From an uncultured Oscillospiraceae bacterium (GTDB lineage: Bacteria; Bacillota; Clostridia; Oscillospirales; Acutalibacteraceae), in NCBI GenBank assembly GCA_900546785.1, contig URED01000032.1, positions 1-29,090 of the forward strand: 29,090 bases of DNA. Direction: 5' to 3'. Below are positions 12,081 to 16,069 of this stretch, piece after piece (position 1 is the stretch's first letter; each line of letters starts with the position of its first letter). Made by a program: the position numbers and the translations under genes. The notes under the pieces were generated by a model, which saw only the letters and a program-made list of their open reading frames with translations, was not told the origin of the DNA and did not search any database.

Positions 12081-12998
12081 TTATTTTGAAAAATAGCCCA
12101 GCACATCGGTAACACTTTCAGAAATCACGTTCGCGCCGTCATAAACAACCGGCACACTGTAAACGTTGACCCCCGTTGTATCGCTTGAAAGCACTGCCAG
12201 ATTATCCTGCTGCGCAGTAAAATCGCGAACGGTTATATTTGTGGAAGTATATTCGATAATCCTGCTGAAAGCCCTTTCCCTTTTTTCATAGTTCTGTGCA
12301 TTTATATGCTGTGATACCGCAGAAAGAACAATATCGTTCACGGCGGAATAATTATTTTCCTGAGAAACGTAATAACGCATGAGCTTGACGGCCGTATCGC
12401 CGTCAATACTTTGATTGCCCTCGCTGACTCTTATGTTGTAGCCGTAGCGGGAGGTGTCTTTATATCTTACGTCGCTCAACACGGTATAATTCACACTGCC
12501 GAGGTAATCAAAAAAACTTTCATAATCCGTATAATTGAAATCGGCATAATAATCTATCTCAATCCCGAAAAGATGAGAAAGACTGTTTGAAACGCCCGCA
12601 GCGCCCATTGAGATATAAGTATCCGCCAGTGAAACGCCGTTTTCCGCCGTTTCGGGATCAAGCGTGCACGCTTTATAGGAAACCGTATCCATATCCACCT
12701 GCAAGAGCGTACATACATAAAGCTCCTGCGTGTTTTCATTGCTCATCAGCAGCAGATAATTTGTTTTGCCCTGCACCTCGGGAAGCTGCTCCATGATCTC
12801 ATTATTTTCATCTATAAGATCCTCCGGCGTGATAAATGCTTTAAAGGAAAAATCATACCTTACGCCGAAAATAATAAGAAAAACAGCGGTAAAAACAACG
12901 ATAAATGCAAGCGCGGCAAGCAAGATCTTTTGCTCCAGATCCGATTTTACGCGGGAAGTGGAAACATATATATCGCCGCGGTGTTTAAAGATCCTCAT
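12081..12998 (-). CDS. Membrane protein with a degenerate LCP-like extracellular domain
   Basis: A 305-aa protein with a short basic cytoplasmic start, one membrane segment (about residues 28-50) and an extracellular domain. Its order recalls LytR-CpsA-Psr (LCP) proteins: a YLLLMSNEN strand where LCPs have LLIG, a [19 protein letters not shown] region, and [17 protein letters not shown] like the LCP GxQALxYxR block. The catalytic and lipid-pyrophosphate-binding Arg/Asp residues (SIPRD-type, RADRQ-type) are missing, so it is probably not a phosphotransferase. The start ATG 12998 is fixed by AGGAGG 6 nt upstream; a longer frame to 13037 has no ribosome site. Divergent from dnaA, it heads the transcription unit leading into folE-folP-ybjQ-folB-folK. 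Confidence 0.7.
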
Positions 12999-13028
12999 TT
13001 TTACCCTCCTTTTCTTCAAATCAGTTAT

Positions 13029-13057
13029 ATTATACATTAAGTAAATATATAAAACAA
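13029..13057 (-). promoter_or_regulatory. Promoter of the LCP-like/folate unit
   Basis: On the minus strand TTGTTT (13057-13052), 17-bp spacer, TATAAT (13034-13029), about 30 bp before the start at 12998. Confidence 0.65.
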
Positions 13058-13176
13058 GTTTAAATCATGAATAAATATCGCCGTAAAGCGATTTTTTCTT
13101 TTGCTCAAAAGAAAGATATATAGTAGTCTATATATTTAAATATTATATTATTATAGATATATAATAATTTTAAGTA

Positions 13177-13205
13177 TTGTATATTATTAAATAAAGTGTT
13201 ATAAT
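13177..13205 (+). promoter_or_regulatory. Promoter of dnaA
   Basis: TTGTAT (13177-13182), 17-bp spacer, TATAAT (13200-13205), in a very AT-rich stretch. Transcription would start near 13212, just before a putative DnaA box (13220-13228). The rest of 13058-13176 holds only AT-rich sequence. Confidence 0.6.
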
Positions 13206-13219
13206 AATCTATATTTGAG

Positions 13220-13228
13220 TTTTCAACA
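13220..13228 (+). promoter_or_regulatory. Putative DnaA box (TTTTCAACA) in the dnaA leader
   Basis: An exact copy of the 9-mer repeated in the dnaA-dnaN spacer, right after the predicted dnaA transcription start. In many bacteria DnaA represses its own gene through such a site. The sequence differs from TTATCCACA at positions 3 and 6. Confidence 0.5.
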
Positions 13229-13266
13229 TTTCTTTAAATATATATTGAACTACCGAGGAGAAGCTG

Positions 13267-14652
13267 ATGAACACCTATAACGATATTTGGCAGGAGATAT
13301 TGGAGACCGTCCGCCCACACGTTTCGCAGACGGGCTTTTCCGCATGGCTCAGCGGTGAAAAAAACGGCTATCTTAATTTTACGGAATTTGAAAACAACAC
13401 CGCCTATCTGCACTGCCCGAACGATATGAAGATCAACATTATAAAAAGCCAGTACATAGAGCTTCTGAAAAAAGCTTTTGAGCAGGTTATGGGCTTTCCG
13501 GTTGAAGTGGAGCTTGTGCTGGACACGCCCTCCCCGCTTGACGCAGCCGCAGAAGGGGCGGAGGAAAAAGACGCGCAGGAAGACAAATTCCCCGTTTCGG
13601 AAGAAAAACAGGATCAGTTTACGTTTGAAACTTTTGTTGAAGGCCCTTCAAACAAATTTGCATACAGGGCGGCGCTTGCCGTTGCAAAAGACCCGGGCGG
13701 CCATTTAAGGCAGGATCATTCTTATGGCAATTACAATCCGCTTTTCATATACGGCAAATCCGGGCTTGGAAAAACGCACATCTTAAACGCCATCTGCTGC
13801 GAGATAAGAAAAAATTTTCCCGATATGCATATTGTTTATCTGCGTTCCGAAGATTTTTTAAACGAATTCATGAACGCGCTGGACAGAAAAGTGATGGACG
13901 ATTTCCGCCTGAAATTCCGCAATATAGACGTGCTTCTTATAGACGATATTCAGTTTATTGCCGGCAAGATACAGACGGAGGAGGAATTTTTCCACACCTT
14001 TAATTCCCTGATTGAAAACGGCAAGCAGATCGTTCTGACCTCGGACAGGCCTCCGAAAGAGATACAGAGCCTTACGGAAAGGCTTGTTACAAGATTTGAA
14101 ATGGGTATTCTTGCGGATATCCAAAGCCCGGAATATGAAACGCGCTGCCTGATCATTAAAAACAAGGCCATGCTTTTGGGTCTCAATCTTTCAAACGATG
14201 TTGTGGAATACATAGCGGGCAAGATAAAAACGAATATCCGCCAGCTGGAGGGCACCGTTAAAAGACTCTGTGCACTGAAAGAGCTGACGAACCGCGAACC
14301 CACCGTGGCGCTTGCGCAAAAGGTAATAAAAGACGTAATTGACGACGATATTCCCCCGATACCGATAACCGTTGAAAAGATCATTGAAGAGGTTTCGAGA
14401 ATGCAGGGCGTGCCGCCTGAGGAGATCAAATCCACCCGCCAAAAGGCAAATATATCCCTTGCGCGCAAAATGTGCATGTATATCATGCGCGAAGTTACCA
14501 CCCTTACGCTTGAGCAGATAGGAGAAGAATTCGGCAAAAATTATTCTACCGTTATATACAGTATCAAAGAGATACAGAAAAAAATGGAAGAAGATTCCAA
14601 GATAGAAAGAAAAATCAACGATATCATAAATAACGTAAAAACGGCGTCTTAA
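13267..14652 (+). CDS. dnaA: Chromosomal replication initiator DnaA
   Basis: The 461-aa initiator ATPase binds origin boxes and opens the duplex. Domain I (1-80) includes FSAWLSG. Domain II (about 85-115) is acidic. The AAA+ domain III has Walker A GKSGLGKTH (about 165), Walker B VLLIDDIQFI and an ERLVTRFEMG arginine-finger region. Domain IV (about 365-461) is the DNA-binding helix-turn-helix. Its key motif is altered: where most DnaA proteins read GGRDHTTV, this one reads GKNYSTV (Asn425-Tyr426-Ser427-Thr428), one residue shorter with D-H-T replaced by N-Y-S. This fits the unusual origin 9-mers. The start is supported by GAGGAG (13255-13260). Confidence 0.98.
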   Translation: MNTYNDIWQEILETVRPHVSQTGFSAWLSGEKNGYLNFTEFENNTAYLHCPNDMKINIIKSQYIELLKKAFEQVMGFPVEVELVLDTPSPLDAAAEGAEEKDAQEDKFPVSEEKQDQFTFETFVEGPSNKFAYRAALAVAKDPGGHLRQDHSYGNYNPLFIYGKSGLGKTHILNAICCEIRKNFPDMHIVYLRSEDFLNEFMNALDRKVMDDFRLKFRNIDVLLIDDIQFIAGKIQTEEEFFHTFNSLIENGKQIVLTSDRPPKEIQSLTERLVTRFEMGILADIQSPEYETRCLIIKNKAMLLGLNLSNDVVEYIAGKIKTNIRQLEGTVKRLCALKELTNREPTVALAQKVIKDVIDDDIPPIPITVEKIIEEVSRMQGVPPEEIKSTRQKANISLARKMCMYIMREVTTLTLEQIGEEFGKNYSTVIYSIKEIQKKMEEDSKIERKINDIINNVKTAS

Positions 14653-14950
14653 TTTTCAACAAGTTTTTCATTTTTTAACAAAGAATTTTTTAACACCGCT
14701 GTTGAAAATAAAAAACTTCAACAACGGCAACATTTTTTCAATATTTTTTGAACAGCGGAAATTTTGATTTTTTTCGCTTTAAAAAGGGAATTTTTAACTT
14801 TTTAAACATTTTAACATTCCCTACTTCTACTACTCAAATCATCTTTATGTAAATAAAGAGATTTTGATTTTTTTCTCAAATTTTCAATACAGGCATACCA
14901 ATGCAACAAAAGGCTGTTGAAAAACGATTTTACAGGAACGGAGGTAAAAT
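14653..14950. other. Replication origin oriC (dnaA-dnaN spacer)
   Basis: AT-rich 298-bp spacer with clustered 9-mers of one type: exact TTTTCAACA at 14653-14661 (+), 14700-14708 (-) and 14915-14923 (-); TTTTTAACA at 14672-14680 and 14687-14695; relatives at 14715, 14746, 14800 and 14808. No TTATCCACA is present. At 14808-14834 the order box-like 9-mer, short CCC cluster, then TAC TTC TAC TAC matches the basal unwinding layout (DnaA-trios) described for Bacillus subtilis. A 15-bp repeat ATTTTGATTTTTTTC occurs at 14761-14775 and exactly 100 bp later at 14861-14875. Gene order and strand switch at dnaA support the origin call. Confidence 0.85.
14817..14834 (+). promoter_or_regulatory. DnaA-trio unwinding element
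   Basis: After a box-like 9-mer ending at 14816 comes TTCCC and then TAC-TTC-TAC-TAC (14822-14833). The complementary strand, read 3' to 5', gives GAT-GAA-GAT-GAT, four consecutive trios fitting the (G/A)A(T/A) pattern to which DnaA filaments bind in Bacillus subtilis. AT-rich sequence for strand opening follows. Confidence 0.6.
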
Positions 14951-16069
14951 ATGAAATTTTCCTGCAACACAAAAAGCTTTAACGATGCGTGCAACAACGT
15001 TATGCGGGCTGTAAGCACAAAGGTAACGATCCCAACGATAGAGGGTATCCTTGTTGAATGCGGCTCCGACACCCTGAGTCTTACGGGCTATGATTTTGAA
15101 TTCGGCATTAATACGATCATGCAGGCAACGGTAAACGAGCCGGGCGCTATTGTAATCAACGCAAAAGTGCTGTGCGATATTATAAGAAAGGCCTCCAGCG
15201 AGACTGTGACCGTTGAGACGAACGGCACCTCCGTTTCCATTATTGCAGGCGCCGCGCAGTATAATATTATGGGTATAGAGGCAGACGAGTATCCCGAGCT
15301 TCCCAGCGTATCCGGCGGCGTTCCGCTTTTCATAAACCAGCATATCCTGCAAAATATGGTTATGCAGACGCTTTTTGCGGTGGCGGATAATGAAAATTCA
15401 AAGCAGGTGCATACCGGCCTTAAATTTGAAATGGGACTCAATCAGCTGCGGCTTGTAGGCGTAGACGGATACAGGCTTGCCATAAGAACGGAAACGATAA
15501 AATATGACGGCGAGGATATCAGCTTTATCGTGCCCAAAAAAACGATAAGAGAGCTTATCAAGATCATCGGCGCGGATAACGATAAGGATATCCAGATCAG
15601 CGTTGGCAAGCGCCATATTATTTTTGAAGTTGAAAATTACAGCATCATAAGCAGACTTCTTGAAGGCGATTTTCTTGATTATGAGGCGGCGCTGCCGAAA
15701 TCCTCTACTACGACCGTGCTGATCAATACGAACGACGCGATAGACTGTATAGAAAGAACGATACCGGTTATTGAAAACAACGCCAAAAACCCGATCAGAT
15801 GCCTGTTTGACAATGATGAGATGCGCGTTTCCACGGTTTCCTCTCTCGGCAGAGTTGTGGATTATACGCATGCGAATATCAGCGGCGCAAGGGTGGAGAT
15901 CGGTTTTAATTCCAAATATCTGCTTGACGCGCTTTCCGCGGCGGATACGGACCAGGTAAAAATAGAACTCGGCGGGCCGGTAAGCCCTGTCAAGGTACTT
16001 CCAGTTCATGACGAGCATTTTCTTTTCCTCGTTCTGCCGATGCGTTTAAAGGGCGCGGATAATCAGTAA
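14951..16069 (+). CDS. dnaN: DNA polymerase III sliding clamp (beta subunit)
   Basis: The 372-aa ring-forming processivity factor encircles DNA and tethers polymerases. The start [22 protein letters not shown], the three similar clamp subdomains and the C-terminal [18 protein letters not shown] pocket end are typical. Length fits the family. GGAGG lies 7-8 nt before the ATG. It is the second gene of the origin cluster and its product should bind the QISLF tail of the DinB encoded at 2324. Confidence 0.98.

Follow-up and report, generated by a model that had tools for sequence, protein, structure and literature searches.

A residue of DnaA domain IV tracks the version of the DnaA box at a putative origin of an uncultured Oscillospiraceae bacterium and in its relatives

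DnaA and its box are usually regarded as near-invariant, and the default search of the origin finder Ori-Finder 2022 is TTATCCACA (PMC10225481). The window analyzed here, a stretch of 29,090 nucleotides from an uncultured Oscillospiraceae bacterium, contains no exact TTATCCACA at any place; one-mismatch relatives of TTATCCACA number 16 over the whole window. A sequence-only reading had noted that the usual box is lacking around dnaA and had proposed that the origin uses TTTTCAACA, a non-canonical box differing at positions 3 and 6. The four exact TTTTCAACA sites that it named, its two TTTTTAACA sites and, as close relatives of the box, one TTTTGAACA and one TTTTAAACA were all recovered (Table 1). 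Both differences hold against TTATCCACA, whereas against the relaxed E. coli consensus TTWTNCACA, in which T is permitted at position 3 and A at position 6 is not (PMC5043019, PMC7561715), only position 6 departs. In the following, C6 and A6 denote boxes of the pattern TTWTNxACA with C or A at position 6, and DnaA residues are numbered by the E. coli positions to which they align.

Table 1. Features of the dnaA locus and their positions in the window.
Feature	Positions	Strand	Remark
Two non-coding stretches around dnaA	13038-13266 and 14653-14950		527 bases in all
Box TTTTCAACA	13220..13228	+	47 bases 5' of dnaA start codon
dnaA, 461 aa	13267..14652	+	PF00308, PF08299 and PF11638 all present
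Codon for Gln392	14440..14442	+	aligned to E. coli Arg399
Codon for Asn425	14539..14541	+	aligned to E. coli Asp433; next codon Tyr, aligned to His434
Predicted DnaA box TTTTCAACA	14653..14661	+	
Predicted DnaA box TTTTTAACA	14672..14680	+	
Predicted DnaA box TTTTTAACA	14687..14695	+	reads TTTTAAACA in L001-L004
Predicted DnaA box TTTTCAACA	14700..14708	-	
Box-like TTTTGAACA	14746..14754	+	
Predicted DnaA box TTTTAAACA	14800..14808	+	12 bases ahead of DnaA-trio
Weaker box-like ATTTTAACA	14808-14816		overlaps TTTTAAACA box by one base
DnaA-trio run	14821..14832	-	CTACTTCTACTA on +, TAGTAGAAGTAG on -
Predicted DnaA box TTTTCAACA	14915..14923	-	
dnaN (DNA polymerase III beta clamp)	14951..16069	+	

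The locus has the layout of a dnaA-dnaN type oriC, with non-coding stretches on both sides of dnaA and dnaN downstream. The encoded protein matches the DnaA-initiator profiles PF00308 (AAA+, 3e-63) and PF08299 (DNA-binding, 4.4e-22), the dnaA-dnaN spacer is AT-rich (27% GC), and the cumulative GC-skew minimum, computed within the 29-kb window only, lies at 13082. A cluster of DnaA boxes is present as well, in the A6 form. The gene divergent from dnaA (12081-13037) encodes a LytR-CpsA-Psr protein and is not rpmH, which is a neighbour at many Firmicute origins. By sequence only, the spacer also holds a basal unwinding system, described as at least three DnaA-trios with a box no more than 16 bases away (PMC8287927): the TTTTAAACA box and the trio run stand that close together. 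The B. subtilis dnaA-dnaN origin and its basal unwinding system have the same order of boxes and then DnaA-trios in the spacer, with boxes upstream of dnaA (PMC8287927), and positions 13038-14950 with their boxes look like a dnaA-dnaN origin carrying such a Bacillus-like box and DnaA-trio module. The B. subtilis consensus is TTATNCACA (PMC4447404); the window is instead without TTWTNCACA, and its DnaA has Asn for Asp433.

The sequence-only reading had also held that TTTTCAACA clusters as a true box would, and both the shuffle and the close relatives bear this out. Within the 527 non-coding bases the four copies compare with a mean of 0.10 in 2000 dinucleotide-preserving shuffles of these two stretches only, none of which reached four, and the other 28,563 bases of the window hold two (21302+, 23362-). 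The A6 pattern TTWTNAACA occurs there eight times (shuffle mean 0.55, at least eight in 0/2000), and TTWTNCACA was found 0 times in the same bases (shuffle mean 0.22). The sites are close to the window's skew minimum and are conserved one by one in close relatives. When the spacer was aligned with those of L001-L004, of which L001, Clostridium sp. CAG:678, has the closest dnaA in the genome collection (87% identity), the boxes were co-located, and the TTTTAAACA box was followed by a second, looser box and then by CTA trios. Our trio script matched in the window, in L001-L004 and in L027, and gave no match in L005-L007. Among eight close relatives, six carry TTTTCAACA at -45 to -52 upstream of dnaA and L003 carries TTTTAAACA at -42; no box was found there in L027. 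Across the genomes of three close relatives, same-strand TTWTNAACA pairs at most 30 bases apart number 42 versus 9 for the reversed-pattern control, and TTWTNCACA pairs 2 versus 5.

L003 also provides a natural exchange. Its DnaA, 75% identical to that of the window, has Thr in place of Asn at position 433, and three aligned boxes that are TTTTCAACA, TTTTTAACA and TTTTCAACA in the window, L001 and L002 are TTTTAAACA, TTTTGAACA and TTTTAAACA, respectively, in L003. The same TTTTAAACA/TTTTGAACA pair is found in a separate clade with Thr or Gln at 433 (L025, L036-L038, L040, L053, L075).

Compared with chain 1j1v, which we take to be E. coli DnaA domain IV, the window's DnaA carries Arg399 to Gln, Pro423 to Glu, Asp433 to Asn, His434 to Tyr, Thr435 to Ser and His439 to Tyr, and thus differs at all six published base-contact residues, the contact assignments being second-hand. 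Its alignment at residue 433 is without gaps against chain 3pvp, presumably from M. tuberculosis. Membership of the DnaA family is defined by PF00308 and PF08299, not by the base-contact residues. Several of the six changes are frequent in relatives with Asp433, Asn433 being the less common one, and the DnaA of Eubacterium coprostanoligenes has Asp433. All six residues are conserved among E. coli and the Firmicutes that were compared with Clostridioides difficile, a member of a related group with a bipartite dnaA-dnaN origin (PMC7561715), and all six are changed here.

We gathered dnaA-dnaN spacers of relatives in three steps (111, 227 and 268), the later survey being enriched by genomes picked for the box arrays described below. 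The named survey genomes are mostly Clostridia and many are MAGs; the Asp433 set includes two Bdellovibrionota (L047, L052). The threshold for a DnaA match was 120 bits (47/373 sequences fell below), identical DnaA sequences were left out (13 in the earlier step, 27 in the later), as were incomplete dnaA genes (L086, later also L365 and L367), and 28/296 DnaA came without an adjacent dnaN spacer. In L029-L031, L033 and L046 no dnaN could be placed after dnaA and the next long ORF lies ~1.4-1.5 kb further on, so the usual dnaA-dnaN spacer seems to be broken up there.

Across these genomes, the box version is associated with residue 433. Counted over the 268 spacers, the C6:A6 ratio was 302:317 with Asp433 (191 spacers) and 44:44 with His433 (25 spacers); it was 7:119 with Asn433 (35 spacers, the seven C6 boxes falling in six of them) and 0:46 with Thr, Gln and Ser together (Thr 0:27 in seven spacers, Gln 0:9 in two, Ser 0:10 in three). 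Lys433 gave 3:15, with C6 boxes in two of its five spacers, and is a weak class: in L239, A at position 6 is outnumbered by G or T, and the five spacers have no leading box 9-mer. Position 5 differs as well, with a purine in 60 of the 61 A6 boxes of Thr/Gln/Ser/Lys433 genomes and in 65 of the 317 of Asp433 genomes. Upstream of dnaA, the corresponding C6:A6 counts were 155:137 for Asp, 6:9 for His, 1:15 for Asn and 0:17 for Thr/Gln/Ser. At box position 3, Asp433-His434 genomes have T56:A0 with Gln399 and T283:A166 with Arg399, which may be kinship; a role of the Arg399-to-Gln change at this position is not claimed, because 399 does not rank in the top eight columns for it.

A free EM motif search returned purine-rich low-complexity motifs (Asp433-His434), DnaA-trio-like motifs (Asn433, His433) and loose AT-rich ones (Thr/Gln433), with no clear boxes, and an exact 9-mer ranking took its place. 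Without any fixed pattern, this ranking was led by TTTTCAACA and TTTTCCACA in Asp433-His434 genomes, by TTTTCAACA in Asn433-Tyr434 genomes and by TTTTAAACA and TTTTGAACA in Thr/Gln433 genomes, and trio 9-mers rank among the most enriched in the relatives' spacers. The 71 Asp433-His434 spacers contain 68 copies of TTTTCAACA (in 39 spacers) and 69 of TTTTCCACA (in 44), these being the two most enriched box-type 9-mers. The proposal of a non-canonical box is therefore upheld in part: TTTTCAACA appears to act as the true box of this origin but is not peculiar to it, because relatives with ordinary DnaA (Asp433) use TTTTCAACA beside TTTTCCACA. The lineage is distinguished by lacking C6 boxes and at the same time having a DnaA with Asn instead of Asp433, a link that the sequence-only reading had missed.

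Boxes outside oriC came to light when the L001, L002 and L005 genomes were searched for paired boxes. A strictly phased 30-base array of three boxes (box-0-box-3-box, with C or A at position 6) occurs 70 times in 54/200 family genomes, and the reversed control pattern gave 0 arrays in the same 200; in the window no such array was found, allowing up to 3 mismatches. We examined 36 array loci, and 31 of them are not within a predicted ORF of at least 100 codons; the neighbours include an OGG_N glycosylase (12 loci), FtsZ (3), ParA/ParB (2) and a Dus enzyme, among others (records L294, L313-L318 and L283-L312, with the array at 1501-1530 in most). These arrays may be promoters under the control of DnaA or sites for its titration. 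At least one C6 in array boxes 2/3 was present in 25/33 Asp/His genomes versus 1/20 others (p 4e-7, kinship ignored), a count that left out G100, in which no DnaA was found, and three arrays of G023 and G148, which have no complete dnaA. For 11 of the ogg arrays the DnaA could be read: a C6 box is found in 4/5 Asp genomes and 0/6 non-acid ones, and the ogg array of the Thr433 genome G102 has TTTTGAACA twice. In Lys433 arrays, 11/12 boxes 2/3 have G5.

Before any dnaA was retrieved for them, we wrote down the prediction that genomes whose arrays have TTTTGAACA or TTATGAACA and are without C6 would not have Asp/His433. All seven genomes predicted to be non-Asp/His were right (Ser, Ser, Lys, Lys, Lys, Lys, Asn). 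Among 20 genomes predicted to have Asp/His, 19 were readable and 16/19 were right, with Asn in G181, G175 and G056 (Fisher 7/7 versus 3/19, p 0.0002, kinship ignored). Another ten genomes, filed as ambiguous, had six Asn and four Asp. The sorting was uneven, in that three of the seven non-acid calls have TTTTCAACA as box 2 and G191 (one TTTTGAACA, no C6), which has Asn, was filed as ambiguous. For comparison, a family sample of 64 DnaA, chosen for their resemblance to that of the window at a time when the arrays had not yet been discovered, contained two without Asp/His. As to the exceptions, G181 (L320) combines an Asn433-His434 DnaA with TTTTGCACA, TTTTCCACA and TTTTACACA in its arrays, and G175 and G056 have Asn433 and a C6 in the first array box.

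Could the association arise without any role of residue 433? If C6 decayed to A6 in AT-rich spacers with the protein being irrelevant, base composition would account for it, and the C6 share of Asp433 spacers does climb with spacer GC, from 0.29 below 20% (5:12) to 0.83 above 40% (54:11), with a smaller gap at 30-40% GC (Asp433 91:76, Asn433 3:9). We consider this account very unlikely, as the gap persists at matched GC, both at 20-25% (Asp433 69:80, Asn433 1:39, Thr/Gln/Ser 0:14) and at 25-30% (62:93 versus 1:33). A logistic fit that includes spacer GC (227 spacers, boxes treated as independent) keeps a non-acid coefficient of -2.93 (LR chi2 84), and the G5 boxes (TTTTGAACA) used by Thr/Gln/Ser/Lys lineages are not a product of AT drift. 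Kinship alone, with a few clades sharing DnaA residue and box type by chance, is a highly unlikely explanation. It draws on the several non-acid genomes that are close kin (L005-L007 and L036-L040, for example) and on shuffle and Fisher p values that ignore kinship; against it, a tree built without domain IV (FastTree, long-branch placement being unsure per its own warning) has 18 changes between Asp and non-acid residues (His left out), and Asn433 is scattered over several separate clades, where A6 boxes mostly go with it. In 15 independent pairs drawn after array-guided sampling, on average 10.0 differed in the predicted way, 0.6 in the opposite way and 4.4 not at all (median p 0.006, range 0.0002-0.15 over random pairings), and another scoring gave 9.4, 0.0 and 5.6 (median p 0.004). 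Ten pairs from before that sampling, with a stricter box count and Lys left out, gave 6.0 versus 0.3, with 3.7 showing no difference (median p 0.03, range 0.008-0.6). The kinship-aware p values are modest, reaching 0.15 with 15 pairs and 0.6 with ten over random pairings. Tested as full explanations by GC-matched counts, logistic fit and independent pairs, base composition and kinship proved insufficient.

It is also conceivable that position 6 is set by another domain IV residue (399, 423, 434), or by several jointly, with 433 as a passenger. Residues 399, 423, 434, 435 and 439 vary as well, the window's DnaA departs at six published base-contact positions, residue 423 ranks second in predicting position 6 (gain 31.5), and Asn433 lacks C6 altogether with Tyr434 (0:52) and has some with His434 (5:36). 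Nevertheless, 433 is the best domain IV column, by a wide margin, for position 6 (gain 72.5, next 31.5), and it is the best for position 5 (gain 94.9, next 65.0). C6 is retained where Asp433 occurs with Gln399 (28:28) and where Tyr434 occurs with Asp433 (3:4) or His433 (12:17), and is lost where Asn433 occurs with Arg399 (3:42), which leaves the passenger reading unlikely. Finally, the repeats could be sites of another protein or AT-rich unwinding repeats, as the AT-richness of the spacer might suggest, rather than DnaA boxes. This is extremely improbable, given that spacers of Asp433 relatives carry TTTTCCACA beside TTTTCAACA, together with DnaA-trios, that the sites adjoin trios in the window's kin, and that the site sequence tracks a DnaA residue.

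Our preferred reading, in which we have considerable confidence, is that 13038-14950 is the chromosomal origin and TTWTNAACA (TTTTCAACA) its working DnaA box, with residue 433 of the recognition helix setting the favoured bases 5-6. Asp433 would accommodate either C or A at position 6; with Asn (as in the window), Thr, Gln, Ser or Lys in its place, C6 boxes would become rare or absent, and Thr, Gln, Ser and Lys would additionally bring a purine at position 5 (TTTTAAACA, TTTTGAACA). A change in the DnaA protein would be accompanied by changes in its boxes, whether these lie at oriC, 5' of dnaA or in arrays elsewhere, and the origin boxes would load the initiator onto the DnaA-trio in the way described for basal unwinding in Bacillus. 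DnaA binding and initiation at this locus, as well as a direct contact, are what we infer. Asp can act as a hydrogen-bond acceptor for the amino groups of both C and A, and Asn pairs well with adenine. In the putative contact, the carboxylate would accept the amino group of C or A, and Asp433 lineages would use both C6 and A6 boxes for this reason; the amide would pair with A. A lysine-guanine contact would agree with G5 in the boxes of the Lys433 arrays. The published assignment of D433, in the cited source, is to box position 7, not 6 (PMC8235120), whereas the covariation points to positions 6 and 5. As many as three mismatches in a box are tolerated by the DnaA of B. subtilis (PMC4447404), and A6 boxes may thus also be within reach of ordinary DnaA.

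These data suggest that a single DnaA amino acid may largely decide which box version a bacterium uses. Residue 433 probably acts as a simple code (Asp/His, C6 or A6; Asn, A6; Thr/Gln/Ser/Lys, purine 5 and A6) that has changed many times, each change bringing new boxes to oriC, to the dnaA upstream region and to the ogg, ftsZ and parAB arrays; the entire target-site set of an initiator would therefore be replaceable in evolution. Asp433 lineages with both C6 and A6 boxes may represent a permissive intermediate state. If the one-residue rule is true, the box of a genome could be read from its DnaA sequence, which would improve origin prediction in gut Clostridia, and the family would offer a natural system for studying how the specificity of an essential protein can shift together with that of several unlinked sites without cell death.

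Species-specific DnaA boxes are already known, and a tie to helix 5 has been proposed for epsilonproteobacteria. Those bacteria likewise have a lineage-specific box, with the core TTCAC, which the authors connect to changes in domain IV helix 5, and a rare C-to-A exchange at position 6 is called tolerated (PMC5043019). Their T5 is fixed and their 433-434 dyad highly conserved (PMC5043019), whereas the window has A6 and a change of residue 433 itself. The cyanobacterial box TTTTCCACA and the Thermotoga box AAACCTACCACC are species-specific too and have T at position 3 as in the window; unlike the window, cyanobacteria keep C6, and the Thermotoga box is a 12-mer (PMC6323995, PMC10225481). Among the literature matches listed, which covered few subscription journals, we found neither a link of residue 433 to box positions 5/6 nor TTTTCAACA named as a DnaA box, and those among them that contain the string TTTTCAACA did not concern DnaA. 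In chain 2z4r, which we take to be from T. maritima, the position aligned to 433 is occupied by Ser.
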